A program made the translations under genes and the position numbers. From Burkholderiaceae bacterium (GTDB taxonomy: Bacteria > Pseudomonadota > Gammaproteobacteria > Burkholderiales > Burkholderiaceae_E): a DNA stretch of 64,000 nucleotides. Position 1 is the first letter of the stretch. Every line of letters starts with the position of its first letter. Below are positions 4,495 through 21,578 of the stretch, piece by piece. The notes under the pieces are model-generated. The model made no database searches. It was given only the letters and a program-made list of their open reading frames with translations, and was not told the DNA's origin. Where the stretch lies: contig JAOSJU010000001.1 in NCBI GenBank assembly GCA_027493945.1, positions 1-64,000 on the forward strand, given 5' to 3'.

Positions 4495-4954
4495 CGCTGC
4501 CCGGCGAGCTCTGACATCACGACCTGCATCACGCGCTCGGCCGTCTCACCGAACAGGCGAACGCGAGCGCCGCTTCGCGTGAGCACCTCGATTCGAGGGC
4601 ACGCATCATGCGCGTTCACACTACTGCCGGAATCGTTCGGCGCGGGCACGATCGGCACCGGCAGAAAGCCCGCCGAACTCTCGGGCGCCTTCGCCTCACG
4701 CGGCGAACTCGCCGTGCGCCGGCACCTCGTCCTTGAAGCCGCGCACTCCAGCGCCGCAGCGTCGACAGCGCCAAGCCGTGCTGCTCGCAGTACTGCGAAA
4801 TCGACAGCCCGCTCGCAGCGCGTCGACGTTCGTGCTCCTCCCAGAACGAGCGCGGATGACACAGCGTCTGCTTGCCCGTTCGCCAATCGATCCGCCTTCG
4901 CGGCGGCGGCGTCTCGGCCGGCGCCGGCTCGACTATCTCGGTTGCTTCTCCCAT
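4491..4954 (-). pseudogene. tnpA: IS66 accessory protein TnpA (Orf1), one frameshift
   Basis: The N-terminal part includes a helix-turn-helix-like segment (GLSISQYCEQHGLALSTLRRW) that fits the DNA-binding IS66 Orf1 protein. Around 4700-4760 the reading moves to another frame, whose C-terminus (IEVLTRSGARVRLFGETAERVMQ) is typical of the family. The start is uncertain. The ATG at 4954 gives the usual length, and another ATG lies at 4990. Confidence 0.75.
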
Positions 4955-5019
4955 CGGTGCGCATCCTCGCTTCGTCCATCTTGCGTGCAAGGATCGTCGA
5001 AATGACGACGGCGCGATAG

Positions 5020-5042
5020 AACGGGGACTCTCGGACAGTTAC
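5020..5042 (-). repeat. IS66 right terminal inverted repeat
   Basis: Read on the minus strand the end begins GTAACTGTCC and ends TCCCCGTT, mirroring the left end at 1958-1980. Confidence 0.92.
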
Positions 5043-5050
5043 GGCCGGCG
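5043..5050. repeat. Target-site duplication, right copy (GGCCGGCG)
   Basis: Right partner of the duplication at 1950-1957, directly outside the IS66 right inverted repeat. Confidence 0.93.
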
Positions 5051-5265
5051 CGCGCGGCAGAAGCCGCGCGGCGAGCTGGCGCTCGTCCCACTCGCGCACC
5101 GTCTCCCAGTCCAAGGCCGGCGGCGCTGGCCAACCCCAGGTACTTGGTCACCGCGCCCTTCGAGACACCGAGCGCGGCGGCAATGCTCTCGTGGGAGAGC
5201 TGCGCCTCCCACTTCAATCGAATCACGTCCTTGATCATGCGTAGAGCCATCCGTGGTTTCGGCAC
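5051..5265 (-). pseudogene. istA: IstA transposase, N-terminal part (separated by IS66)
   Basis: A GTG at 5265 gives VPKPRMALRMIKDV, followed by a helix-turn-helix (LSHESIAAALGVSKGAVTKYL) characteristic of IstA. After ASAAGL one extra base near 5117 shifts the frame. The next frame reads DWETVREWDERQLAARLLPRAPA and runs into the IS66 junction. Joining codon 5045-5043 to 1949 keeps the frame and gives TSPFVEPDWGRVHREL, so the IS66 insertion split one gene. Confidence 0.85.
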
Positions 5266-5349
5266 CGTCTCCCTCCTGTGGGCAAAACCGCCGAGGGTAC
5301 GGGCCAGGATCCAGATCTCTACGCAATGCCACAGCCGACGCCGAGGCAC

Positions 5350-5480
5350 CGGTCACGATCGCCGAAACGTTCGGTCACGTTGCCGAAACGGCCGGTCACG
5401 ATGCGCCGAAACGCGCGGTCACATTCGGCCGAAATGCGCGGTCACATTGCCGAAACGGGCGGTCACGATGGGCCGAAATA
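5350..5480. repeat. Six imperfect ~20-bp terminal repeats of the IS21 element
   Basis: Six adjacent copies of a CGGTCACrttgCCGAAACG-like unit occur at about 5350-5369, 5371-5390, 5391-5413, 5414-5435, 5436-5457 and 5458-5480. IS21 elements are known to carry several terminal copies of the transposase site, and these fit that role. They lie between istA and the interrupted host gene. Six copies is more than the two or three commonly described. Confidence 0.75.
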
Positions 5481-5482
5481 CG

Positions 5483-5802
5483 CACGCAAGCGCCTCGTCG
5501 ATCATCTCGGCGGCCACGTCGCCGGGATCCGAATAGCCGTCGCGCCGGGGCCCGGCGCGGTCCCACACGTCCTCGACACTCAACGACTCCAGTTCGGCCA
5601 GGACTTCCGCCGCCACATCATCGGCATCGACCGCGCCGAGCAGGTCCCTCGCCATGGTCTCGATGACCTTGGCCCATTTCGGATCGCGATCGGCAAGCCG
5701 GCGCAGGATGACGAGCGCGTCGTCGCCGCGCAGCGCTTGCAGGATGCTGTCGAGATCCAGGGGGTCTTGTGCCGGCGGGCCACGACGAGTCTTGCGTACC
5801 AT
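5483..5802 (-). pseudogene. Hypothetical protein, 3' end lost to IS21 insertion
   Basis: The protein starts at 5802 (MVRKTRRGPPAQDPLD) and is acidic and helical (ALRGDDALVILRRLADRDPK, VDADDVAAEVLAELESL). About 106 native residues remain, up to AAEMIDEALA. After that the reading enters the IS21 terminal repeats and stops at 5419. I recognise no family. It follows the gene ending at 5825 by 22 bp on the same strand, so the two were probably cotranscribed. Confidence 0.6.
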
Positions 5803-5824
5803 TGCTGATCCCCTTGCGCAACGC

Positions 5825-6328
5825 TCAGATATCGTCGCTGAGGTCGCGCAGTTCGAGCTTGAACTGGAAGCCCGTGTAGGTCGCCACCATGCGGCCGAAC
5901 TCGTCCCAGGAGATGTTGCGGCCGTCGATCACGACCACTGGCATATCGGTCTTGCCATCGGCGTCGCTCTCGATTCTGGCGCGAACGATGCCACGGTCGT
6001 TGATTTGCAGTCCGTACGCGTCCTCTTCGAGGTGCGTGCGTGCGAGTCCTTGGCGCATCCTGGTGACGAGCCGAGCGAGCAACTCGAACAGGTCTCCTTT
6101 CTCGTGCCCGATGACCTTGAACCAATAGCCCTCAGACTGGTCTTTGTTGAGTTCGATCGCATCGATCGTGACGCCGCCAGCGACCAAGTGAGTGCGGTTC
6201 GGGGCTCCAATCGTCTTCGAACCTGCGCGGCGAACAACGCCAGCACGCAGCGGGTCGTCGCGACCATTTTCGATCGACGCAGGGATGTGCGCCTGCTCGC
6301 GGAGACGATCTGACCGTGCGATCAGCAT
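5825..6328 (-). CDS. Conserved hypothetical protein
   Basis: The C-terminal ~120 residues look like a real folded domain. They include DAIELNKDQSEGYWFKVIG, DLFELLARLVTRMRQGLART and VVVIDGRNISWDEFGRMVAT. The N-terminal part is less convincing. I placed the start at ATG 6328, but the open frame extends to 6823 without conserved-looking sequence, and a frameshift near 6200 is possible. There is no signal peptide or membrane segment. Function unknown. Confidence 0.5.
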   Translation of the reverse strand: MLIARSDRLREQAHIPASIENGRDDPLRAGVVRRAGSKTIGAPNRTHLVAGGVTIDAIELNKDQSEGYWFKVIGHEKGDLFELLARLVTRMRQGLARTHLEEDAYGLQINDRGIVRARIESDADGKTDMPVVVIDGRNISWDEFGRMVATYTGFQFKLELRDLSDDI

Positions 6329-6529
6329 ATGGCATTTGTGGGGTCGGGCGCGCCACTTGGCGCCTTTGAGCGGCAGACATTTGCTCGGCGGCTCCACGCG
6401 GGACGGCGTCGGCAGCGATTGCCTTGGCGGTCCTGAAGCAACTGTCGTCGTGCCCCGGCGACGTTTTGTGTCGGCCGTTCCGCAAGACCGGTCGTTGGTG
6501 CCGCGGGCTCTTGGATTCCTGAATGACCG

Positions 6530-6718
6530 GTCGGTGGCCGACACCGTACCGGACGACAACCGGGCAATCTGTCGCGCACCTTGAAGACGATGTCGCGCTA
6601 CGGGCTGGTGGAGCTTCGACGCGAGAGGACCCACGTCAGGCCGGTCGTGAAGGCGACCGAGTTCAAGATCCTGGCAGTTGCTCGAGATCGCGTGCTCGCC
6701 TATTTCGCAGAAGAGTGA
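6530..6718 (+). pseudogene. C-terminal piece of a winged-helix DNA-binding protein
   Basis: The frame reads GNLSRTLKTMSRYGLVELRR, then THVRPVVKATEFKI and a stop at 6716-6718. This is the recognition helix and wing of a small family of HTH regulators (HVO_A0114-like) often paired with a toxin or methyltransferase gene. A stop immediately upstream (about 6527) means the N-terminal half is missing or frameshifted. No partner gene is visible. Confidence 0.5.
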
Positions 6719-6911
6719 GTACTCTGCGTCTGGGCAGGGCGGAGCAGGCAGGGCAGCCGCAGGCCAATCTTGGCTACGCCGGGCGATCCGGCCCCGCCAG
6801 ATCGTTCGCCGAGAGTTGTGCAAGTCAGCTGATCTTGATGGAGACCCTCAATCGCGCCGCTTGTGCGGCACCGTGACGGTAAAGACATGGGCGAAAACGT
6901 TCTGCGGGACA

Positions 6912-7277
6912 ATGATCAAGCCAGATCAACAGCTTAGAAGGCTCGTTGATGATCGCGTGGGTGGTTCGCGATCTATCGGCGACTATCGCAGACGGCTGAT
7001 TACCGGGCAAGTCACCGGACAAGTCCTCGAGGAAGTCGAACGGCTGGTCCTCGAGGTGGGCGGCCCGATGAAGCGAGCGCAGATCCAGCAGGCGCTGGGC
7101 TTGAGGCACGAAGACCATTTCCGCGATGCCTACCTGCCTCTGGCGCTTGCTACAGAACTGCTCGCGATGACGGTTCTGGAAAAACCGGGCAGCAGCCGCC
7201 AGCCTTATCGTCTGACCGACAAGAGGCAGGAACTTCGTACCGATCTCTTGCGCCGGAGAAGACTTCGATGGGGCTGA
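6912..7277 (+). CDS. Winged-helix protein resembling the C-terminus of Fic/RecG-like regulators
   Basis: The 121-residue product begins MIKPDQQLRRL. It contains TGQVTGQVLEEVERLV and a winged-helix segment (MKRAQIQQALGLRHEDHFRDAY and SSRQPYRLTDKRQE). Such TGQVT repeats plus a winged helix normally form the C-terminal tail of larger Fic-domain or AlbA/RecG-like proteins, so this is probably a detached fragment. It ends 81 bp before cas3 on the same strand. Whether it is expressed is unknown. Confidence 0.5.
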   Translation: MIKPDQQLRRLVDDRVGGSRSIGDYRRRLITGQVTGQVLEEVERLVLEVGGPMKRAQIQQALGLRHEDHFRDAYLPLALATELLAMTVLEKPGSSRQPYRLTDKRQELRTDLLRRRRLRWG

Positions 7278-7358
7278 GCCTCCCGGATGCGGTGCGTGTC
7301 TTCCTGACACGGGTCTCCGGCCCTCGCCGAGCAAAAGCCCCTTTCCTGAGCCCGCGCC

Positions 7359-10126
7359 ATGTCTTGCTTTAGCTTATTGCATCCAGCCGTTCGCCGTATC
7401 TGGGCCAAGAGCGGAGAAGCGGGAGGGCACGGACTGCTGGCCCATCTGCTGGACGTCGCTGCCGTCGCCGAGGTCATTCTCAGGTTGGAGCCACCGGCCA
7501 CCCATCGGATGGCGGCTCGCTCGATGGGATTGCGCGAAGCGGACGTGCTGCGCTGGGTCGCGGCATTGGTTGGCCTGCACGATTTCGGCAAGGCCATACC
7601 CGGCTTTCAAGCCAAGTGGCCAGCTGGCCACTTGGCAGACCGGCAGGCCGGGCTGAGCTTCGAGCCGGCGGCGTCGCTGGAGTGCGACCAGCATTCCAGA
7701 GCAACCGCGGCGCTGCTGAGCCCGATGCTGCAAACGCTGTGCGGTGCCGAGTTCCTCTGGTGCCTGCACGCGGTGCAGGCGGTCAGTGCTCATCATGGTT
7801 ACCACTTCAGCGCGCACGAAGTGGCGAACGGCGCACCGCGGCGTGAGCCGCCTGCATGGCGTCAGGCGCGATCCGAACTGCTGGAGGCCTACTGGGCCGT
7901 GCTGGCACCGCAAGGATGCCCCGAGGCCGAAGCCATGAACCTGCCTCTGGTCAACTGGCTGGCGGGGCTGACCAGCGCGGCCGACTGGATCGCATCGAAT
8001 CCGACATGGTTCCCGCCGGGCGAGCGTCGCGACGATCTCGCCATGTATCACCAGCATGCGCTGCAACTGGCAGCGCAGGCATTGCGAAGCGTGGGCTGGC
8101 GCGCCTGGCGGCCGCTGCTCGCCGAGGCGCCGGACGTGGCCGAGTTGCTCCCGCGGATGATCGGGCGCGCGGACGTGACGGTCAGGCCGCTCCAGCGAGA
8201 GGGCGACGTGCTGTTGCGCAGCGCCCGGGGACCCTCGCTGCTGCTGGTGGAAGCGCCGATGGGAGAGGGCAAGACCGAGCTTGCCTTCCTCGCTCACCTG
8301 CACTTGCAGGCTGCCAATGAGCACCGGGGCCTGTACCGGCCTTGCCGACCCAGGCGACGGGCAACGCGCTGTTCAAGCGCGCGCAGACTTTTCTCGAGGC
8401 GTTCGCGACGGCGGGGCTCGATCTGCAGCTGGTGCATGGTGGCGCCGAGATGAACGAAGACCTGGCGACCCTGCGCGGCATCGATCACTCACCGAGCGAA
8501 ACCTTGTCGGCCAGTACGTGGTTCGGCCAGCGTCGGCGCCCGCTGCTCTCACCCCATGGTGTCGGTACGGTCGACCAGGCCCTGTATGCCGTGCTCAACG
8601 TGAAGCACCATTTCGTTCGGCTGTGGGGCTTGAGCAACCGAGTGATCGTGCTCGACGAGGTGCATGCCTACGACACTTATACCAGTGGCCTGATCGTCGC
8701 GCTGCTGCGTTGGCTGAGGTCCCTGGATTGCTCGGTCGTGCTGATGAGCGCCACCTTGCCGCATGCTCGTCGCCGTGACCTGTTGGCCGCGTGGGGCGTG
8801 GATCAGATTCTTCCGGAGCCGGCCTATCCGCGCCTGATGCTGGCCGATGCGACTGGAGTGAAGGGCGTGCATGTCGATGCCCGGCCGCTGGCGCCGATCG
8901 AGGTGCGAGGTATGGACTGCGACATCGACAGCCTGGCTGATGTCGCGATCGCGCAGCTGCGCGAAGGCGGCTGTGGCGCGTCGATCGTCAACACCGTGGC
9001 GCGTGCACAAGCCCTGTATCGCGCCTTGCAGGAGCGGCTGCGTGATGCCGGTTTGGCCGGGGGCACGTCGCTGCTGCTGTTCCATGCTCGTTTCCCGGCC
9101 GATGAGCGTCGGGTGCTGGAGGAGCGTGTGCTGTCGCTCTTCGGTCCTCACGGACAGCGTCCGCCTCGAGCGCTGCTGGTCGCGACGCAGGTGGCCGAGC
9201 AATCGTTGGACATCGACTTCGACTTCATGCTCAGCGATCTGGCGCCGATTGATCTGTTGCTGCAGCGCGCAGGTCGGCTGCATCGCCACCTGCGTGACTC
9301 GAGGCCGACCGCGCATGCCGTCGCCAGGTTGTGGGTGGCAGGACTGCAGCCGGACCAGTTGCCCGAGCTGGAGCAGACCGCATGGGGCTTCGTCTACGAA
9401 CCGTACCTGCTCTGCCGCACCTGGGCGCTCCTGACTCAGGAGCCCGTGCTGAACCTGCCGCATGACATCGACCGTCTGGTCCAGGCTGTCTACGACGATG
9501 ACCATGAATTGCCGGACGAGGTGGAAGCGGCGATGCGTCGCTTCATCGAGATCGATGCCTATGGGGAATACCTTGCCGATCGCAAGACCCAAGAGCAGTT
9601 GGCGCAGAACATCGCCATTCATCCGGCGGAAGAGGCGCAGCTCGCCTATGACCACAAGCCCCGAGGCCATGAGGAGGACGAGCAGGGGTTGGGGCTGACC
9701 AACGTCACCCGCCTGGGCCAGCCGTCCATCACGCTGATCCCGGTAATGGTCGACGCCGAGGGTCGCTGGCACGTCCGTGAAGGCGATTCCGGATTCGACC
9801 CCAACTCGCCTGTTGATTCGCCGACAGCTCGCGCTCTGTATGGTCGGCAGATCAAGGCCAGCCGCCGATGGGTGTTCGAGCACTTCAATGGCCAGGAACC
9901 GCCCGTCGCGTTCGCACAGCACGCGCTGCTGCGTCATGCCCGTGCCGTGCCGTTGACGGCGCGGACTTTCTCCCTCGGGAACCGCTCTTTGAACCTGTCT
10001 GCCGAACTCGGGCTCGTGTATGGGGATGAGGGAGGGGAAGCCGACCCCCGCACTACCCCTGCGGATTGCACCAGCGCTACTGCAACGCCTGCAGGACAGC
10101 CAGCGGATCGCGATCGATCAGGTTGA
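7359..10126 (+). CDS. cas3: Type I-E Cas3 nuclease-helicase (one apparent frameshift near 8336)
   Basis: Cas3 is recruited by target-bound Cascade to unwind and degrade DNA. The N-terminal HD nuclease domain shows LLAHLLD (about residues 26-32), the HD pair in [10 protein letters not shown] (residues 74-75) and SAHHGYH. The helicase part shows Walker [15 protein letters not shown] in [16 protein letters not shown], and motif VI in [11 protein letters not shown]. The frame breaks after HRGLY and resumes at [11 protein letters not shown]. One extra G in the CGG/CC stretch near 8336 restores GLYRALPTQAT. The last ~30 codons after [10 protein letters not shown] look non-native and overlap the convergent antitoxin gene by 50 bp. 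It lies 1.4 kb from the Cascade operon, separated by an inserted block. Confidence 0.92.
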
Positions 10127-10361
10127 GCAGCACCAGCGCGGGACCCGCAGGATGCCGGTCGCCTCGCTCCCAATGGCGCAACGTCGCCACCGACACGCCG
10201 AAGCGCGCTGCAAACTGCTCCTGGGTCATGCCGATGCGCTGACGAACGCCTGCGACATCCACCGGCACGGGCGAATACACCTTCACGCCGGCGCCCTTGC
10301 CCTTCGCATGTTCGACCGCCTGCCGCAGACCCGAAGCGATGCTGTCGAAAGCCTTGCCCAT
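10077..10361 (-). CDS. HTH antitoxin of a RelE/HigB-type pair (NadS-like)
   Basis: The 94-residue protein has an XRE-type helix-turn-helix (IGMTQEQFAARFGVSVATLRHWERG) after a variable N-terminal region (SPVPVDVAGVRQR), as in NadS/HigA-type antitoxins. It starts 3 bp after the upstream toxin gene stop, so the two are one toxin-first operon. By family it should neutralise the toxin and repress the operon through the palindrome at 10708-10726. Its 3' end overlaps the convergent end of cas3. Confidence 0.85.
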   Translation of the reverse strand: MGKAFDSIASGLRQAVEHAKGKGAGVKVYSPVPVDVAGVRQRIGMTQEQFAARFGVSVATLRHWERGDRHPAGPALVLLNLIDRDPLAVLQALQ

Positions 10362-10364
10362 GTC

Positions 10365-10700
10365 CTACCTCTCCAACCAATGCGTTACAAGTTCGTCCAC
10401 GAGCACCGACAGCGCATTGCGCTCGGCCGCCGACAGGTTCGCCCGATCGTTCTTGGCGAACAGCGTCAGCAGATACAGCGGCATCGCATCGCTGTGCACG
10501 TAGTAGATCACCCGCACCCCGGAACTCTTGCCCCGAGACCCGTAGGCCCATCGCAGCTTTCGCACGCCTCCGGTGCCGCGGATCAAGTCACCTGCCTTCG
10601 GATTGGCCGCTAGGTAGTCGATCAGCGCCCGATGCTCGTCCGGCGCGAGAAGCGCGGCCGCGGCGCGCTGGAATTCCGGGACTTCGGCGATCGTGATCAC
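10365..10700 (-). CDS. RelE/ParE-superfamily toxin
   Basis: The 111-residue toxin reads MITIAEVPEFQRAAAALLAPDEH, then PKAGDLIRGTGGVRKLRWA and GVRVIYYVHSDAMPLYLLTLFAKNDR. This is the compact fold of RelE-like mRNA interferases, including the Arg of KLRWA and the YLLTLFAKND strand. It is the first gene of a toxin-antitoxin operon lodged between cas3 and cas8e. An 8-3-8 palindrome lies 7 bp upstream of its start. Whether it serves the CRISPR locus or is only a passenger is unknown. Confidence 0.87.
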   Translation of the reverse strand: MITIAEVPEFQRAAAALLAPDEHRALIDYLAANPKAGDLIRGTGGVRKLRWAYGSRGKSSGVRVIYYVHSDAMPLYLLTLFAKNDRANLSAAERNALSVLVDELVTHWLER

Positions 10701-10707
10701 GGCGTAT

Positions 10708-10726
10708 TCTAATCCATTGGATTAGA
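10708..10726 (-). promoter_or_regulatory. Palindromic operator of the toxin-antitoxin operon
   Basis: TCTAATCC-ATT-GGATTAGA is a perfect inverted repeat of 8-bp arms and 3-bp centre, just upstream of the toxin start at 10700. This is the usual place for antitoxin autoregulation. Its AT content stands out against the flanking GC-rich sequence. Confidence 0.7.
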
Positions 10727-10738
10727 TCTGAGAAGACT

Positions 10739-10933
10739 CTAACCTTGGACGGGCCACGAAGATGATCGCCAGTTGTCCGAGCGAAAAAAGCCGCCCGTAG
10801 GCGGCTTCTCGTGGCGGGCGTTCCAACGTTCGGACTCCTGGTCGCCTTCGCGCTCGTTGATTTCGTCGATTTTGTCCAGCGTCCGCTGGGCAGCGTCCCG
10901 ATACATCACTGCATGGGCGCGAACCATGCGCAA
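10739..10933 (-). CDS. Small open frame of doubtful status
   Basis: A 64-residue frame (MYRDAAQRTLDKIDEINERE inside) runs on the minus strand and passes through an intrinsic terminator hairpin at 10784-10807, giving the KPPTGGFF residues typical of translated terminators. The helical part may be the tail of a small phage-type protein. I see no family resemblance. Confidence 0.25.
   Translation of the reverse strand: MRMVRAHAVMYRDAAQRTLDKIDEINEREGDQESERWNARHEKPPTGGFFRSDNWRSSSWPVQG
10784..10807 (-). terminator. Intrinsic terminator for minus-strand transcription
   Basis: On the minus strand, AAGCCGCC pairs with GGCGGCTT across the loop TACG and runs into six U residues (10789-10784). It lies downstream of the integrase relic and of the mini-CRISPR on the same strand, and upstream of the toxin operon. 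It could stop transcripts coming from 11298. Confidence 0.7.
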
Positions 10934-10984
10934 CCAAAGTAAGCGTGTGCCAGAGCTTCACCCAGGTCGCCCTCCTCGGCGCCA

Positions 10985-11175
10985 GTGAGGGACTTCCCGG
11001 CCGCGGCGAGAGCAGTGCGAATCAGTCGCCCAGGCCGAGCTCACGACGCCGGCCGGCCGGCGAGGTGTAGCGAAAGCACCAGGAGCCCATCCCTTGACGA
11101 CGCGCAGGAACAGCCCGCCGCCGTCCGGATGATCGCCATCGGCTGCCGTTTGTACCTGTCCGGCAGTGCATGATG
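10985..11175 (-). pseudogene. Relic of a tyrosine integrase N-terminal domain
   Basis: Two minus-strand frames together give TAADGDHPDGGGLFLRVV followed by SWCFRYTSPAGRRRELGLGD. This is the arm-binding domain of P4-type prophage and island integrases (ADGGGLYL...WxFRYxxxGKRRxxxLG). The rest of the enzyme is absent. It marks a past island insertion between cas3 and cas8e. Confidence 0.65.
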
Positions 11176-11185
11176 ATACTGACGG

Positions 11186-11209
11186 AGGGAAGGGCATCCG
11201 CCCCTCCCT
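11186..11209 (-). terminator. Stem-loop at the 3' end of the mini-CRISPR RNA
   Basis: Arms 11186-11195 and 11200-11209 pair over ten positions (one G-U) around an ATCC loop, directly abutting the second degenerate repeat. There is no U-tract, so termination is possible but not certain. It could instead protect the 3' end of the guide RNA. Confidence 0.45.
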
Positions 11210-11296
11210 GGACATCCCCGCGGTGGCGGGGAACTTGTGAGGTGGTCCACAAAGCGGACCGATCAACCGGTTCATCCCCACCATGGTGGGGGCATC
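11208..11296 (-). ncRNA. Two-repeat mini-CRISPR: CreR/CreA-like guide RNA gene
   Basis: Read on the minus strand, a degenerate repeat (11296-11268) is followed by a 31-nt pseudo-spacer (11267-11237) and a second degenerate repeat (11236-11208). Each matches the consensus of the 66-repeat array at 21 of 29 positions. The first keeps the last 12 positions exactly, including the handle ATGAACCG. Its stem is kept by a compensatory change (positions 10 and 17, G-C to A-T). The second keeps the whole CCCCGC/GCGGGG stem, but its handle has diverged. Only one guide can therefore be produced, with Cas6e cutting after each hairpin. Self-regulating (CreR) and toxin-controlling (CreA) RNAs of type I systems are built this way. 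Assignment is by architecture plus the self-target at 11313-11346. The RNA itself is inferred. Confidence 0.78.
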
Positions 11297-11304
11297 AGTT
11301 TACA

Positions 11305-11333
11305 ATTAAATAGTGTGTGTTGCATTAAAGCAA
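11305..11333 (-). promoter_or_regulatory. Predicted sigma70 promoter of the mini-CRISPR RNA
   Basis: On the minus strand TTGCTT (11333-11328) and TTTAAT (11310-11305) are separated by exactly 17 bp. TTTAAT matches the -10 consensus at five of six positions. The expected start, about 11298, lies just before the first degenerate repeat at 11296. This spacing leaves almost no leader, as in known CreA/CreR genes. Confidence 0.65.
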
Positions 11334-11346
11334 ACAGATCAACCTT
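11313..11346 (-). promoter_or_regulatory. Partial protospacer with AAG PAM for the mini-CRISPR guide
   Basis: On the minus strand AAG (11346-11344) precedes GTTGATCTGTTTGCTTT. The guide begins GTTGATCGGTCCGCTTT. Positions 1-7, 9-10 and 13-17 match, and 19 of 31 match overall. Mismatches at 12 and 18 fall on flipped-out positions that type I-E Cascade ignores. AAG is an established I-E PAM. The site covers the -35 element of the guide promoter and lies in the AT-rich region upstream of cas8e. Partial pairing of this kind supports binding without Cas3 cleavage. Confidence 0.78.
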
Positions 11347-11545
11347 GAAAAATTAAACTGGAGCGGTTAAGCTTTTTATCGATCGACGTTTCCGCCCTGC
11401 GCCGTAGCAGTCAGGGTGACGATCGAGGCCTTGTGCGCTGTTCGACTCGGTAATCAAGAACGGGCTTGTGGCGTGAGCGAAAGAAGCGATCGACGGTTTC
11501 GCCGGGGTCGCGCTCGGCACGGCATGGGGATGATGGAGGGAAAGC

Positions 11546-13123
11546 ATGCGGAGCGAGTACAGCCTCCTCGACGAGCCTTGGCTGGCCGTGCAACTGGCAG
11601 ACGGCACGGTGCGGTGGGTGGGGTTGCTCGAGGCGTTCCGTCGCAGCGGCGAGATCGTGGCCCTGGCGGAAACCGAGCCGCCAAGCCTGATCGCTCAGTA
11701 CCGGATGCTGCTGGCCATCGTGCAACGGGCACTGGTGCGTTCGCGCGGCACGTGGAAGGACTCCGAGCGCGTGACCTGGTTCCGGCAGGGGCTGCCGGTG
11801 GACGACATCTGCGCCTACCCGGAATCTCTGCGAGAGCGCTTCTGGCTTTTCGATGCGGAGCATCCCTTCATGCAGGTTCCCGCATTGGCCACGGCGGAGG
11901 AAACGCGCGACAAGCGCAAGCCTTGGACGCAGATCTCGTTGGCCAGTGCCAACGGCAACGCGCCGGTGGTGTTCGACCACGCGGTGGATTGCGTGCCCGC
12001 ATCCATCAGCCGTCAGGCGGCGATCACCCATCTGCTGGGCTTTCTTCAGTTCACGCCGGGTGGCCTGGTCAAGACGCTGCGGGACGCCGACAAGGCGGGG
12101 GCGTTGGTCAACACGGCTGCCGTGTTGACCGTGGGCAGCACCCTGGCGCAGACCTTGTGCTTGGCGCTGCATCCTCCACCGTTGCCCGGGCAATCACAAC
12201 CCGATCTGCCGGCCTGGGAGCGCGCCCCGCTGACCCTGGCCGAGCTGCGTGGCGATCCCGTGCTGGCCACCGGTCCCAACGACCGCTACACGCGCCAGAG
12301 CCGCGCGGTGCTGCTGGAATCCGAACCAGATGGCCAAGTGCGCTGGTTGCGCTTCGCGGCCGGCTGGGCCTTGGGCGAGGACCCTCAGCGGCCCGACCCG
12401 ATGGCCTGCTACCGCGCCGGCAGCAACGGACTCGTCCGCGTGAGCTTCACCGAGGGGCGAGCCGTCTGGCGCGATTTGCCGGCGCTCGTGCCTGCGCCCC
12501 AAGCCGCAGGCCATGAAGGGGCTCGGGTTGCAGCGGTCGTGAATTGGGCTGCTGGACTGCATCGTCTGATGGGCGTCGCTGCCGGACACCTGCAGCGGCT
12601 GCTGGTGGCGGGCTTGGCCAGTGACCAGGCCAAGCTGTTGCGTTGGCGTCTGGAGCAGTTCGCGCTGCCTCAGGCTCTGCTGGTCGAGCCGGATCGCGCG
12701 CGCGAGCTGCATGCGCACGTTGCGCTGGCCGAAGAGCTGCACCGGCAGCTTCGTGCCATCGCCACCGATCTGGTCGCCATGACGCTGCCGGATCCGCGCA
12801 GCAAGGATTCGCGCAGTCGCGCCCGGGAGCTGGTCGAGCGCGGGCCACTGTCCCCTGCCTACTTCGCTACCGCCGAGCGCGAGCTGTGGGCGCTGATGAC
12901 CTGCATCGCACGGGACGAACCGGACGAGGCCGATGCGTTGTGGCACCGGGCTTTGCGAGATGCGGCCTGTCTCGCATGGAAACCGCTGGTGGACGGCTTG
13001 GGATTCTCCCCGCGGGCATTGCAGGCCGAGGCGCGCTGTGGACCCCGTTTGAATCGCCTGCTGCGCCAACGCTTGCCGGCCGCGTTTGCAGTCACTGCCG
13101 ATACCCAGACCGAAGAGGCCTGA
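11546..13123 (+). CDS. cas8e: Type I-E Cascade large subunit Cas8e (Cse1/CasA)
   Basis: The 525-residue protein matches the usual Cse1 length. It begins with the typical YSLLDEPWLAVQLADGTVRWVGLLEAF. Further family blocks include FWLFDAEHPFMQVP, ISRQAAITHLLGFLQFTPGG and LAWKPLVDGL. It recognises the PAM and recruits Cas3. A GGAGG ribosome site lies just before the ATG. It is the first gene of the tightly packed Cascade operon, and its stop is followed after one base by the cse2 start. The frame is intact. Confidence 0.94.
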   Translation: MRSEYSLLDEPWLAVQLADGTVRWVGLLEAFRRSGEIVALAETEPPSLIAQYRMLLAIVQRALVRSRGTWKDSERVTWFRQGLPVDDICAYPESLRERFWLFDAEHPFMQVPALATAEETRDKRKPWTQISLASANGNAPVVFDHAVDCVPASISRQAAITHLLGFLQFTPGGLVKTLRDADKAGALVNTAAVLTVGSTLAQTLCLALHPPPLPGQSQPDLPAWERAPLTLAELRGDPVLATGPNDRYTRQSRAVLLESEPDGQVRWLRFAAGWALGEDPQRPDPMACYRAGSNGLVRVSFTEGRAVWRDLPALVPAPQAAGHEGARVAAVVNWAAGLHRLMGVAAGHLQRLLVAGLASDQAKLLRWRLEQFALPQALLVEPDRARELHAHVALAEELHRQLRAIATDLVAMTLPDPRSKDSRSRARELVERGPLSPAYFATAERELWALMTCIARDEPDEADALWHRALRDAACLAWKPLVDGLGFSPRALQAEARCGPRLNRLLRQRLPAAFAVTADTQTEEA

Positions 13124-13124
13124 C

Positions 13125-14862
<1,738 letters not shown>

Positions 14863-14865
14863 AGC

Positions 14866-15534
14866 ATGGCTACCTTGCTGCTGCGGCTGCGGGGCCCAAT
14901 GCAATCCTGGGGCACGACCAGCCGCTTCGATGAGCGCGACACGCAGTTGGAGCCGTCGAAATCAGGCGTGCTCGGCCTGCTGTGCGCGGCACTCGGTCGG
15001 GATCGGGCCGAGCCGGTGGATGACCTGGCAGCGCTGCGCATGGGGGTGCGCGTCGACCGGGAGGGCGTGCCGATGCGCGACTACCAGACGGCCACGGGGG
15101 TCCTGATCGCCAGCAACGCCAAGGCCGACGCCGATCGGACGGTGGTCAGTCCGCGCTTCTATCTGGCGGATGCCGTGTTCCTGGTCGGACTGGAAGGCAC
15201 GGACGAGGCACTGCTGTCGCGGCTGCATCAGGCCCTTCGTCAGCCCGTCTGGCCGTTGGCGCTGGGGCGCAAGAGCTTCGCGCCTTCGTGCCCCGTGTGG
15301 TTGCCCGACGGCTTGGTGTCCGAGCCCCCGGAGGCGGCACTGCGGGGCTACGACTCGCAGCATCATCGTTGCCCCGATCGTCGGCTCCGCCTGCTGCTGG
15401 AGCATCCCACCGAAGGGGCGATCCGCTTCGATCAACCTGTGGCGCCATTCGCGCAGCGGCGCTTCGGACCTCGCTTCGTCCATACCGAGTTCTTCAACGG
15501 GACCGCGCATGTACCTGACCCAGCTGCGGCTTGA
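14866..15534 (+). CDS. cas5e: Type I-E Cascade subunit Cas5e (CasD)
   Basis: The 222-residue RAMP protein begins MATLLLRLRGPMQSWGTTSRF, the hallmark of Cas5e. LEPSKSGVLGLLCAALGRDR and PMRDYQTATG follow. Cas5e caps the 5' handle of the crRNA. It starts 3 bp after cas7e and overlaps cas6e by 26 bp. The frame is intact. Confidence 0.94.
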   Translation: MATLLLRLRGPMQSWGTTSRFDERDTQLEPSKSGVLGLLCAALGRDRAEPVDDLAALRMGVRVDREGVPMRDYQTATGVLIASNAKADADRTVVSPRFYLADAVFLVGLEGTDEALLSRLHQALRQPVWPLALGRKSFAPSCPVWLPDGLVSEPPEAALRGYDSQHHRCPDRRLRLLLEHPTEGAIRFDQPVAPFAQRRFGPRFVHTEFFNGTAHVPDPAAA

Positions 15535-16128
15535 TCCCCACAGCGCCCGGGCCCGCCGGGACCTGGCCGATCCCTACGACATGCACCGCACCCTGGTGCG
15601 CGCTTTCGTTCGCGACGAGACGGAGTCGCCGCCGCGCTTTCTGTGGCGGCTCGAGGCGGGCCGCGCCCGGGACCAACCCGTGGTGCTGGTGCAATCGCCA
15701 CGGGCGGGGAATTGGTCGTTTCTCGCCGCGTCGCCGAGTTATCTGAAGACGGATGACGCCGAGCCTCCTGCCAAGCACTTCGATCCGGCCGCGTTGTCGG
15801 TTCAGGATGGGCGCTACCGTTTTCGGCTCGCCGCCAATCCGACCGTTACGCGCGAGGGCAAACGCCATGGTCTGGTCGGAGAAGATGCCCAGCTGACCTG
15901 GCTGCAGCGGCAGGGCGAGCGCAACGGCTTCGATGTGCAGGCCGCGCTGGTCAGCGGCAGCGATACGCTGCGCGGTCGCAAGGCCGCTATGCGCGTGAGC
16001 CTGCTGTGCGTGGTGTTCGAGGGAATTCTGGTCGCGCGTGATCCGGTGATGTTGGCCAGCGCCGTTGCCAACGGCATCGGCCCGGGCAAGGCGTTCGGCT
16101 GTGGTCTGTTGAGTCTGGCGCGCTGCGC

Positions 16129-16132
<4 letters not shown>
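15509..16132 (+). CDS. cas6e: Type I-E crRNA endoribonuclease Cas6e (Cse3/CasE)
   Basis: The 207-residue protein starts MYLTQLRLDPHSARARRDL. It has DPYDMHRTLVRAF, in which the His is the expected catalytic residue, and a C-terminal glycine-rich RAMP loop (NGIGPGKAFGCGLLSLAR). It cuts pre-crRNA below each repeat hairpin, leaving the 8-nt handle ATGAACCG. The same activity should release the guide from the mini-CRISPR at 11208-11296, whose stems are intact. It overlaps cas1 by four bases. Confidence 0.94.
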
Positions 16133-17354
<1,222 letters not shown>

Positions 17355-17422
17355 CAACGCGATAATTCGGTAGATCAGCGCAGCCCGGATTTCTCTTCGG
17401 GGAACAAGGGCTTGCGTTTGGT
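17355..17422 (+). promoter_or_regulatory. Short CRISPR leader
   Basis: Only 68 bp lie between the cas2 stop and the first repeat. The region is moderately AT-rich at its start (AACAACGCGATAATTCGG). I see no clear IHF site and no convincing -35/-10 pair. Array transcription may depend partly on the cas operon. The leader side is set by repeat orientation (handle ATGAACCG at the 3' end) and by the mutated last repeat at the far end. Confidence 0.6.
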
Positions 17423-17939
17423 GTGGTCCCCGCGAACGCGGGGATGAACCGTCGGCGTGATCCTTGCTCACGCGCAGGATGTGGTGGTCCCCGCGAACGC
17501 GGGGATGAACCGGATCTGACGGCCGAGAGCGAACGCCTGCGCGCGTGGTCCCCGCGAACGCGGGGATGAACCGTCGAACCAGTCCATTCGAATACCTCCC
17601 GTGCGGTGGTCCCCGCGAACGCGGGGATGAACCGATTCGGCCCCGCTTCTAGTAGGACAATCAACCGTGGTCCCCGCGAACGCGGGGATGAACCGTCCAG
17701 TAGCAAATCCTTCGGCGAGGCACGTAAGTGGTCCCCGCGAACGCGGGGATGAACCGCTCGTCGTGGGCCACGAAGCGCGGGGAGAATCGTGGTCCCCGCG
17801 AACGCGGGGATGAACCGGGCATGGGCAAGGTCTATGAGTCGATGGTCAAGTGGTCCCCGCGAACGCGGGGATGAACCGCGGACGCGCTTACCGTGGCCGG
17901 TGCTGTGATCGTGGTCCCCGCGAACGCGGGGATGAACCG

Positions 17940-17971
17940 GTGGTGGCGATGCCATCGGTGGCGGGTTGTGC
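17940..17971 (+). repeat. Spacer 9, identical to spacer 23
   Basis: The 32-bp spacer beginning GTGGTGGCGATGCCATCGGT is repeated exactly at 18795-18826. Flanking spacers differ, so it is not part of a larger block duplication. Confidence 0.95.
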
Positions 17972-18794
17972 GTGGTCCCCGCGAACGCGGGGATGAACCG
18001 GCCGCGTGATGAGCGCGGTCGCGTCGCCGAGTGTGGTCCCCGCGAACGCGGGGATGAACCGTTCGTCATCACCGCCGAGGATCGTGCGACCGCGTGGTCC
18101 CCGCGAACGCGGGGATGAACCGCCGTTGACCGCGCGCACGCCAATGTTGATGACGTGGTCCCCGCGAACGCGGGGATGAACCGTGCCCGCTAGCCACGAG
18201 CGCATGCGGCGTCGAGTGGTCCCCGCGAACGCGGGGATGAACCGCGTGGCTGCAGGTGCAGTCGCTGTTCAACTGGGTGGTCCCCGCGAACGCGGGGATG
18301 AACCGACCCATTGCGACGAGGCGCGTCATCTACCTGCGTGGTCCCCGCGAACGCGGGGATGAACCGTAGAACGTGCGCCGCGCCGCATTGGATTCGCTTG
18401 TGGTCCCCGCGAACGCGGGATGAACCGGCGAGGCAGTTGGGTTACTCGACGCTGCTGTGGTGGTCCCCGCGAACGCGGGGATGAACCGTGCAGCCGAAAA
18501 TCCAACGGCGTGAGCACCCTGGTGGTCCCCGCGAACGCGGGGATGAACCGGGCGACGACCTCGGCAAGCTGCTGGCGTTACTGTGGTCCCCGCGAACGCG
18601 GGGATGAACCGACGGCAGCCGCGATGCAACCTCGCTACCCGGCGTGGTCCCCGCGAACGCGGGGATGAACCCAGTTCATGTACCGCCTGCCAACCACCAC
18701 GCCGGTGGTCCCCGCGAACGCGGGGATGAACCGACTGCCTATGCGGTTGCGAAGCTGGCTGAGGAGTGGTCCCCGCGAACGCGGGGATGAACCG

Positions 18795-18826
18795 GTGGTG
18801 GCGATGCCATCGGTGGCGGGTTGTGC
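18795..18826 (+). repeat. Spacer 23, identical to spacer 9
   Basis: Second copy of the spacer at 17940-17971, fourteen repeat units further from the leader. Confidence 0.95.
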
Positions 18827-21578
18827 GTGGTCCCCGCGAACGCGGGGATGAACCGGTTGCATCGCCCGAGGATGCCTCGTTGATGGAGTGGTCCCCGCGA
18901 ACGCGGGATGAACCGATTTGTGCCAAGTTCCCCGAACGCGCGAAGGAGTGGTCCCCGCGAACGCGGGGATGAACCGCGCCGGAACCTCTGGCCAACCGAG
19001 TGCCGTGGGTGGTCCCCGCGAACGCGGGGATGAACCGTTGTTTCGTACAAAGATTAGATTCGCATGGGAGTGGTCCCCGCGAACGCGGGGATGAACCGCA
19101 CCACCTGGCCGGTGAGGATCGACTTGCCATGTGGTCCCCGCGAACGCGGGGATGAACCGTGCCGGTTGTAGCTCGGCGCCATGACCGTGTTGTGGTCCCC
19201 GCGAACGCGGGGATGAACCGGTAGAGGGTGCGATGACCTACGTTCTCGGCCAGTGGTCCCCGCGAACGCGGGGATGAACCGCAGATCGAGCAGCGCGGCT
19301 CGATTTCCCACCCGTGGTCCCCGCGAACGCGGGGATGAACCGTACCGCGCCATGTCCGGGGTGATCGGCACGCCGTGGTCCCCGCGAACGCGGGGATGAA
19401 CCGTAGCAAGGGTCGACCAGATCAACCGCGAGGCCGTGGTCCCCGCGAACGCGGGGATGAACCGCAACGGCACTCCGCGCCGTCAAGTCAGTGGGCGTGG
19501 TCCCCGCGAACGCGGGGATGAACCGCTCGGGACGTATCGGACACGCGACCTAGTGTCGTGGTCCCCGCGAACGCGGGGATGAACCGGCGGCGCCCCTCTG
19601 GTCGCCTCGCGCACGATCGTGGTCCCCGCGAACGCGGGGATGAACCGGGCTTGCCAGATGATTACTGGGAGCAACTCACGTGGTCCCCGCGAACGCGGGG
19701 ATGAACCGGACTTGCTCTGCCGCACCGTGATTGTTTCATAGTGGTCCCCGCGAACGCGGGGATGAACCGCACTTTCCATCGTCGCTCTTCGTCGAGTCGA
19801 TGTGGTCCCCGCGAACGCGGGGATGAACCGTCGCGCTGCCGCCGCTCGCATACGCCGTATAGGTGGTCCCCGCGAACGCGGGGATGAACCGGTGTCCCTC
19901 GCCGGGTCGATCCCCGTGCGTCCGTGGTCCCCGCGAACGCGGGGATGAACCGCTGCTGCAGGGGTGGGGCTACGAGGTCATGCCGTGGTCCCCGCGAACG
20001 CGGGGATGAACCGCTGCTCAATCTGGACTTCGCTGGCGTTTCGTCGTGGTCCCCGCGAACGCGGGGATGAACCGCAAAAGGCGGCAGCGCGCGCCGTGGC
20101 TGCTGCGTGGTCCCCGCGAACGCGGGGATGAACCGCAGTACCGGCCTATCACCGGCAAGTTGGAGAAGTGGTCCCCGCGAACGCGGGGATGAACCTGGTT
20201 CGACGGTCAGGCCGGGCAGGTCGCGGACGTGGTCCCCGCGAACGCGGGGATGAACCGGAGGGGCGCTGCTCGTTGGCGCTGGCTTTGCGGTGGTCCCCGC
20301 GAACGCGGGGATGAACCGGAGGTCGAAACGACATGACTGCTTCCGACGTCGTGGTCCCCGCGAACGCGGGGATGAACCGCCGAACCTGCGCTGCCCGCAG
20401 ATCGTCGGCCCGTGGTCCCCGCGAACGCGGGGATGAACCGCGCACGCGACGATTTGGACGCCGGCTGAAGAGGTGGTCCCCGCGAACGCGGGGATGAACC
20501 GGATGGGTGCTGGTGAATGCCGGGCGGATTCTCGTGGTCCCCGCGAACGCGGGGATGAACCGCCGACGGCCACCTTCATGCTCACCGAGTCGCCGTGGTC
20601 CCCGCGAACGCGGGGATGAACCGGTCCGGGAGCTGCTGCACATAGGCGGTCAGGCCGTGGTCCCCGCGAACGCGGGGATGAACCGCTGATTTCGTTCATC
20701 ATGCGCGTGCCAGACGAGTGGTCCCCGCGAACGCGGGGATGAACCGGTGCTGATCCTGCGGCCGTTGAAGTCGAACCGGTGGTCCCCGCGAACGCGGGGA
20801 TGAACCGCCCGCCGCCGCGCGCGCCTGATCCGCAGTGCGGTGGTCCCCGCGAACGCGGGGATGAACCGTTCGTCCGCGCAAAATGGCCGGACTGGCAATC
20901 GTGGTCCCCGCGAACGCGGGGATGAACCGCAGAACACACGCATGACGCCAGTGCCGAGAGAGGTGGTCCCCGCGAACGCGGGGATGAACCGTCAGCCATG
21001 AACCGCACATCGGCGCGCACCGCGTGGTCCCCGCGAACGCGGGGATGAACCGACGTCTGGACGTACCACGCCAAGACCGGGCGCGTGGTCCCCGCGAACG
21101 CGGGGATGAACCGTTGGGCTGGTGACGTAAACGTCCCGGGCGATAGTGGTCCCCGCGAACGCGGGGATGAACCGAGCGTCGTGCGCTTCCTGTTCGGCGC
21201 GCCGCGGTGGTCCCCGCGAACGCGGGGATGAACCGAAACACGTCGCTGCGCCGAGGTAGGCATTCGGGTGGTCCCCGCGAACGCGGGGATGAACCGCACC
21301 GAATACGCGCGCGCATGTTCGTGATTTGCGTGGTCCCCGCGAACGCGGGGATGAACCGTTCGTGTGCGAGCGTGTCTCGCGTGGTGACATGTGGTCCCCG
21401 CGAACGCGGGGATGAGCCGCTCACTCATGCGAAGGGCGAGGCTCGGTTTCGCTCACGTCGGCGAGCGGGCGCACGACGGCGGGCCGATGGCCCATCTGTG
21501 GTGGCACCTGCAGGCGACCAGTCGCCCCGGCCGGAGGTGCGAGTTGCCGCGGAATTTTCGTCCGCGGGATTGAATTCG

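Follow-up and report, generated by a model that had tools for sequence, protein, structure and literature searches.

A degenerate mini-CRISPR with a matching target ahead of cas8e: a probable CreR-type regulator in a type I-E locus of the Burkholderiales

The window, meaning the whole 64,000-nucleotide stretch of Burkholderiaceae DNA analysed here (contig JAOSJU010000001.1), carries the type I-E genes cas3, cas8e, cse2, cas7, cas5, cas6e, cas1 and cas2 together with a main CRISPR array of 61 exact repeat copies and five variants. The nearest named relative is Burkholderiales bacterium 70-64 (L003; contig MKUQ01000053.1), whose cas8e is 96% identical and whose array repeat is the same as that of the window. 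On the minus strand between cas3 and cas8e, two degenerate repeats, PsiR1 and PsiR2, flank a single 31-nt guide (11208-11296), and about 1.15 kb of extra DNA (10038-11184), which sits at the very end of cas3 and is absent from L003, parts this element from the rest of cas3. The extra DNA, which the original prediction overlooked, holds a RelE-like protein and an HTH protein that likely form a toxin-antitoxin pair downstream of the mini-CRISPR. A scrap at 11025-11198 (minus strand) has a weak match, below the cut-off (E 0.03), to an integrase-type arm DNA-binding domain and is possibly a relic of the event that inserted this DNA. A tRNA scan of positions 5000-17400 found none. The features on which the argument rests are as follows.

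7359..10126, plus strand: cas3, in two frames, with a one-base difference from L003 near 8338
10080-10364, minus strand: HTH protein (PF01381; NadS-like below the cut-off), within the extra DNA
10368-10721, minus strand: RelE-like protein (PF06296, just over the cut-off), within the extra DNA
11184..11207, no strand assigned: G/C-rich inverted repeat adjoining PsiR2, read from the sequence; a possible terminator without a T run
11208..11236, minus strand: PsiR2, second degenerate repeat, AAGTTCCCCGCCACCGCGGGGATGTCCAG; 21/29 positions; predicted 3' hairpin
11237..11267, minus strand: guide (spacer), 31 nt, GTTGATCGGTCCGCTTTGTGGACCACCTCAC
11268..11296, minus strand: PsiR1, first degenerate repeat, GATGCCCCCACCATGGTGGGGATGAACCG; 21/29 positions against the array repeat; predicted 8-nt 5' handle ATGAACCG
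11313-11343, minus strand: protospacer-like target, 19/31 identical to the guide; positions 1-7, 9-10 and 13-17 match
11344..11346, minus strand: AAG PAM adjoining the target
11345..11373, plus strand: TTGAAA-17-TAAGCT, a weak candidate promoter for cas8e that overlaps the PAM (8/12, equalled by 31 of 100 shuffles)
11546..13123, plus strand: cas8e (Cse1/CasA; TIGR02547, PF09481), the gene downstream of the target
17423..21419, plus strand: main CRISPR array, repeat GTGGTCCCCGCGAACGCGGGGATGAACCG

The original prediction had described two minus-strand copies of a mutated array repeat, each agreeing at 21 of 29 positions, around one spacer between cas3 and cas8e. Both flanking genes are as it stated, and PsiR1 and PsiR2 proved to be the two best matches to the array repeat on either strand of the 64-kb window when the array (positions 17300-21500) was omitted, the runner-up reaching 19/29. 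The finer anatomy is borne out as well. The mini-CRISPR unit measures 60 bp, against mostly 61 bp in the main array; PsiR1, the copy predicted to supply the handle, keeps the last 12 positions exactly; and its stem carries a real paired change, G10 to A with C17 to T, that can be read from the sequence. The second copy was said to have kept its hairpin and lost its handle: the stem of PsiR2 is indeed present, and 5 of the 8 handle positions remain. When each element was folded as a single RNA, the repeats of the window element paired with each other instead of forming two local hairpins (z -2.65), and the L003 element formed two local hairpins (z -3.66). The guide also contains an inverted repeat, GGTCC-7-GGACC (11244-11260, minus strand); in its L003 counterpart one pair has switched from C-G to T-A and another has been lost. 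An Rfam search of 9900-11700 gave no match up to E 0.1, the best matches of the element to phages and plasmids (E 0.5 and 0.4) were not significant, and a promoter and terminator scan of 11100-11600 in the window called none.

The original prediction proposed a CreR- or CreA-like guide without naming a target, having overlooked the guide match toward cas8e. The proposal gains support from an AAG-flanked protospacer ahead of that gene. The target reads AAG and then GTTGATCTGTTTGCTTTAATG, against GTTGATCGGTCCGCTTTGTGG at the start of the guide, with all 7 seed positions and 14 of the first 17 matching. It lies on the same strand as PsiR1, starting 47 nt upstream of it and about 200 bases (202 nt) ahead of cas8e; the 31-nt protospacer itself is separated from the repeat by 16 bp. 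When the 4.28-Mb assembly (88.76% complete) was searched for the 20-base guide-target pattern with at most two mismatches, two sites were found, the target and the guide itself. The window guide mismatches at positions 8 and 11, both within 7-11, and may be a weak copy; for the CreA of a halophile, the available text of PMC8501985 gives a loss of function of about 10^4-fold when any of positions 1-5 or 7-11 is changed.

In L003 the element stands in the same place (4662-4751), its first and second repeats matching the array repeat at 23/29 and 19/29 positions. The guide begins GCTGGTCGGTTCGCTTTG and the target is AAG-GCTGGAAGGTTAGCTTTG, which again starts 47 nt upstream. Comparison of the window with L003 over positions 1-18 shows guide differences at 2, 5 and 11 and target differences at 2, 5, 6, 7, 8, 12 and 18. 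The seed changes at 2 and 5 are thus mirrored between guide and target, and those at guide position 11 and at target positions 6, 7, 8, 12 and 18 are not. The surrounding intergenic DNA of L003 has diverged, yet most of the seed pairing is retained. L036, L046 and L047, three loci of a single genus in a different family of the window's class, have three unlike guides, each of which matches its own upstream site. The original prediction had named random decay of the repeats in related genomes as the finding that would count against it; guide and target were found instead to change together between species.

A wider census covered the regions upstream of cas8e in 59 type I-E loci. Cse1 homologues were taken from overlapping sample sets covering the genus (2/18 genomes), family (6/74), order (6/399 at E <= 1e-20), class (30/369) and phylum (18/398), and the surroundings of genomes G629 (3/17 and 5/85) and G515 (2/2). 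Two duplicates (L002 and L037, of L003 and the window) and five fragments or very weak matches (L005, L008, L009, L045 and L066) were removed from 66 loci, and L042 and L050 were retained despite failing the open-frame orientation check. The set was not blind: two of its members, the window and L003, had been known from the outset, and L036, drawn from the class sample, prompted a search of its relatives that supplied L046 and L047. The class and phylum samples also yielded L019, L020, L024, L026, L027, L034 and L051. To pass the scan, an element needed a stem, matches at all of positions 1-5 and at least three of the five positions 7-11. The strict form of the scan returned 11 matches, of which nine were accepted after L014 (PAM CGG) and a second match in L019 (PAM TCG) were dropped, and a relaxed form demanding AAG returned 11, of which ten were accepted after removal of L006 (handle 4/8, 240 nt away). 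The ten relaxed AAG matches, with L019 and L036 from the strict scan, make up the 12 accepted loci.

An element with hairpin, handle and a guide matching its own region beside a motif at the PAM position was therefore found in 12 of 59 upstream regions: the window (L001), L003, L019, L020, L024, L026, L027, L034, L036, L046, L047 and L051. The guides number 11, since L027 and L034 share one, and the PAM is AAG in all loci except L036 (AAT) and L019 (AAA). Where at least 120 nt precede cas8e, 10 of 16 regions have an element and none was called in six. One of these six, L021, has repeats and a guide that by eye matches AAG-flanked DNA on the opposite strand with a mismatch at position 6; it seems to be a thirteenth case, aimed at the other strand, and is left uncounted. 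A scan for opposite-strand targets gave chance-like matches only. Neither Roseateles oligotrophus (L004; gap below 120 nt) nor Ideonella dechloratans (L015; annotated cas3 overlapping casA) has an element ahead of cas8e or a scan match there. As controls, the strict scan gave one match on the opposite strand, one in 56 downstream regions read on both strands and 0.53 per set in 30 shuffled sets. The relaxed AAG scan gave 0.43 per shuffled set; its opposite-strand set and two downstream sets, with roughly threefold the sequence, together gave seven matches, and the scan is weak by itself. When guides were compared with the regions of other loci, 0 of 694 pairs matched.

The accepted loci share a pattern of mismatches like that of an R-loop. 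Positions 7-11 each match in 10-11 of the 12 loci, positions 1-5 and most of 7-11 having been selected for. Positions 6 and 12-16 played no part in selection; there, the target matches at position 6 in 2/12 loci, at 12 in 2/12, at 13 in 11/12, at 14 in 10/12, at 15 in 8/12 and at 16 in 7/12. Matching continues to fall at positions 17 (4/12) and 18 (3/12), and the pattern is the same without L027. Positions 6 and 12 differ from 13 and 14 with P = 1.4e-6 (Fisher test, loci treated as independent). For CreA, positions 6 and 12 lie outside the pairing and 1-5 and 7-11 are required, according to the part of PMC8501985 that was available. The natural loci show, in their sequences, the same 6/12 rule and a pairing that fades past about 16 nt, as would be expected of Cascade R-loops. 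In the PsiR1 stems of 10 loci (the count leaves out L020 and L046), 58 of 60 cells pair, G-U being allowed, with several pair types per position; because the scan required a stem, this pairing is partly by construction, and what is informative is how varied the pair types are.

In L003 the promoter scan did call a site, TTGATA-17-TAGACT, at the place equivalent to the window's candidate; it scores 9/12, a value equalled in 1 of 100 shuffles. In 5 of 12 loci the -35 with the best score begins at this PAM-overlapping place. Among the 12, promoter scores stand clearly above shuffles only in L003 and L020 and are poor elsewhere.

The anatomy, the guide-target match, the co-change between species and the R-loop-like mismatches point to a regulatory RNA. 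The product of the mini-CRISPR is probably a CreR: by guiding Cascade, such a crRNA-like RNA would repress cas8e and the cas operon of its own locus. CreR is preferred over CreA because the target position precedes cas8e. Several observations weigh on the other side: the window mismatches at 8 and 11, the unmirrored changes relative to L003, the generally poor promoter scores, the AAT and AAA PAMs, the weakness of the relaxed scan alone, the fold of the window RNA and the six regions with room but no called element. A minus-strand transcript would be cut by Cas6e at both degenerate repeats to give an RNA of about 60 nt starting ATGAACCGGTTGATC, which would be loaded into Cascade and pair over about 16 nt with the site ahead of cas8e. 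Judging by type I-E biochemistry, such pairing should suffice for binding and be insufficient for cleavage by Cas3. Array crRNAs or anti-CRISPRs that draw Cascade away would then ease the repression, and expression of the cas genes would rise. This mechanism follows the available portions of reviews that discuss CreR in terms of crRNA sensing, competition between crRNAs and relief by anti-CRISPRs.

An alternative explanation is that the element has no current role in this genome, being either the remains of a decaying array or a self-targeting spacer. Repeats reduced to 21/29, one degenerate handle and the window mismatches at positions 8 and 11 would all fit such a history. The co-change of guide and target and the retention of the handle over 12 loci speak against it, as does the seed pairing that L003 has largely kept amid diverged intergenic DNA, and decay is improbable.

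Another possibility is that the RNA is a CreA-type antitoxin guide, for which a toxin gene or toxin RNA, in place of cas8e, would be the only or the main object of repression. The anatomy is the same as that of CreA, and the RelE-like/HTH pair is encoded on the element's strand, downstream of it; the extra DNA in which that pair sits is, however, absent from L003, which retains the element. A minimal CreT can be a six-codon frame, as given in the available text of PMC8501985, and could be accommodated in the 202 nt that precede cas8e. In the corresponding stretch, 3 of 12 loci (L003, L046 and L051) do have small frames with tandem rare codons, but at unlike places, and no such frame was found in the window or the eight other loci. 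On the element side there is little room for a toxin, the target starting 26-63 nt from the first repeat in 9/12 loci. A CreA-type role seems very unlikely. Still less credible is a similarity that stems from two copies of a transcription-factor operator or from an antisense RNA pair: the inverted repeat in the guide, partly retained in L003, might suggest it, but the match starts exactly at the handle/spacer border beside AAG, the guides vary between loci and match their own region only, and the 6/12 pattern is unexpected of an operator.

If the element acts as CreR, its effect may extend to itself. With just 47 nt from PsiR1 to the target start, Cascade bound there would probably lie over the promoter of the guide as well. 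In 9 of 12 loci that distance is 26-63 nt, which would place a nearby guide promoter under bound Cascade. Self-repression of the guide by Cascade is likely. More tentatively, and with rather less confidence, Cascade and CreR might form one switch on two opposed promoters that silences both the cas operon and its own guide, so that the guide level would be held by Cascade. In each species guide and operator would be rewritten jointly (the seeds of three loci from one genus are all unlike), so that the two could be viewed less as a fixed regulator than as an RNA-operator pair that renews itself.

Reportedly, CreR was described as a cas-regulating RNA by Liu et al. in Cell Host Microbe in 2023 (doi 10.1016/j.chom.2023.08.005). 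The element resembles CreR in being a mini-CRISPR with degenerate repeats that adjoins cas genes, here of type I-E, in having a guide with limited complementarity to DNA ahead of a cas gene and beside a PAM, and in keeping the guide-target pairing through sequence change in its loci. As summarized in the accessible parts of the reviews, CreR is a mini-CRISPR whose crRNA-like RNA is partly complementary to cas promoters (PMC13131331, PMC12948488, PMC12737573), and one of the three assigns it to types I-B, I-E and V-A. As CreR has been reported for type I-E in that material, the element would be a further CreR, from a Burkholderiales lineage. What differs from CreR as covered there is the locus and lineage; the 12-locus comparison of guides and targets and the mismatch pattern come from the present analysis. 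The original remark that no description of this element was known stands for this locus in the literature searched, which covered CreR through review passages; CreR in type I-E, as those review portions indicate, has been described.

The likeness to CreA of CreTA, as far as the consulted portions of the CreTA papers go, is drawn at the level of sequence: two degenerate repeats that would give 5' and 3' handles, and a target beside a PAM (for CreA, in a promoter). The pairing rule of CreA, in which 1-5 and 7-11 form the seed and 6 and 12 stay free, is approached by the 12 loci taken together, and the window guide pairs at 1-7, 9 and 10 with mismatches at 8 and 11. What CreA represses is a toxin RNA; the gene behind the target here is cas8e. 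The first repeat of CreTA is the more diverged in the available text of PMC9458426, whereas both are at 21/29 here and the first is the closer in L003. With its own type I-E array the element shares the origin of the repeat and presumably Cas6e and Cascade; it differs in its opposite strand, single guide, degenerate repeats and a guide that only partly matches the locus itself.

Judging from sequence, a fair number of type I-E loci probably use CRISPR guides for regulation, and the matched guide and target changes found in nature do the work of a mutational test. The combination of handle, hairpin and an own-upstream match beside AAG offers a search rule for CreR in unannotated loci, and the element itself may serve as a compact natural reporter of how much Cascade is available and of anti-CRISPR action.

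Two minor observations concern the rest of the locus. The main array contains a duplicated spacer, with identical repeat-spacer-repeat units at 17911-18001 and 18766-18856. The frames of cas3 (8338) and cas7 (13905) are each broken by a one-base difference from L003 inside CCTGG, and because the same motif occurs at both breaks, these may be methylation-linked sequencing errors.
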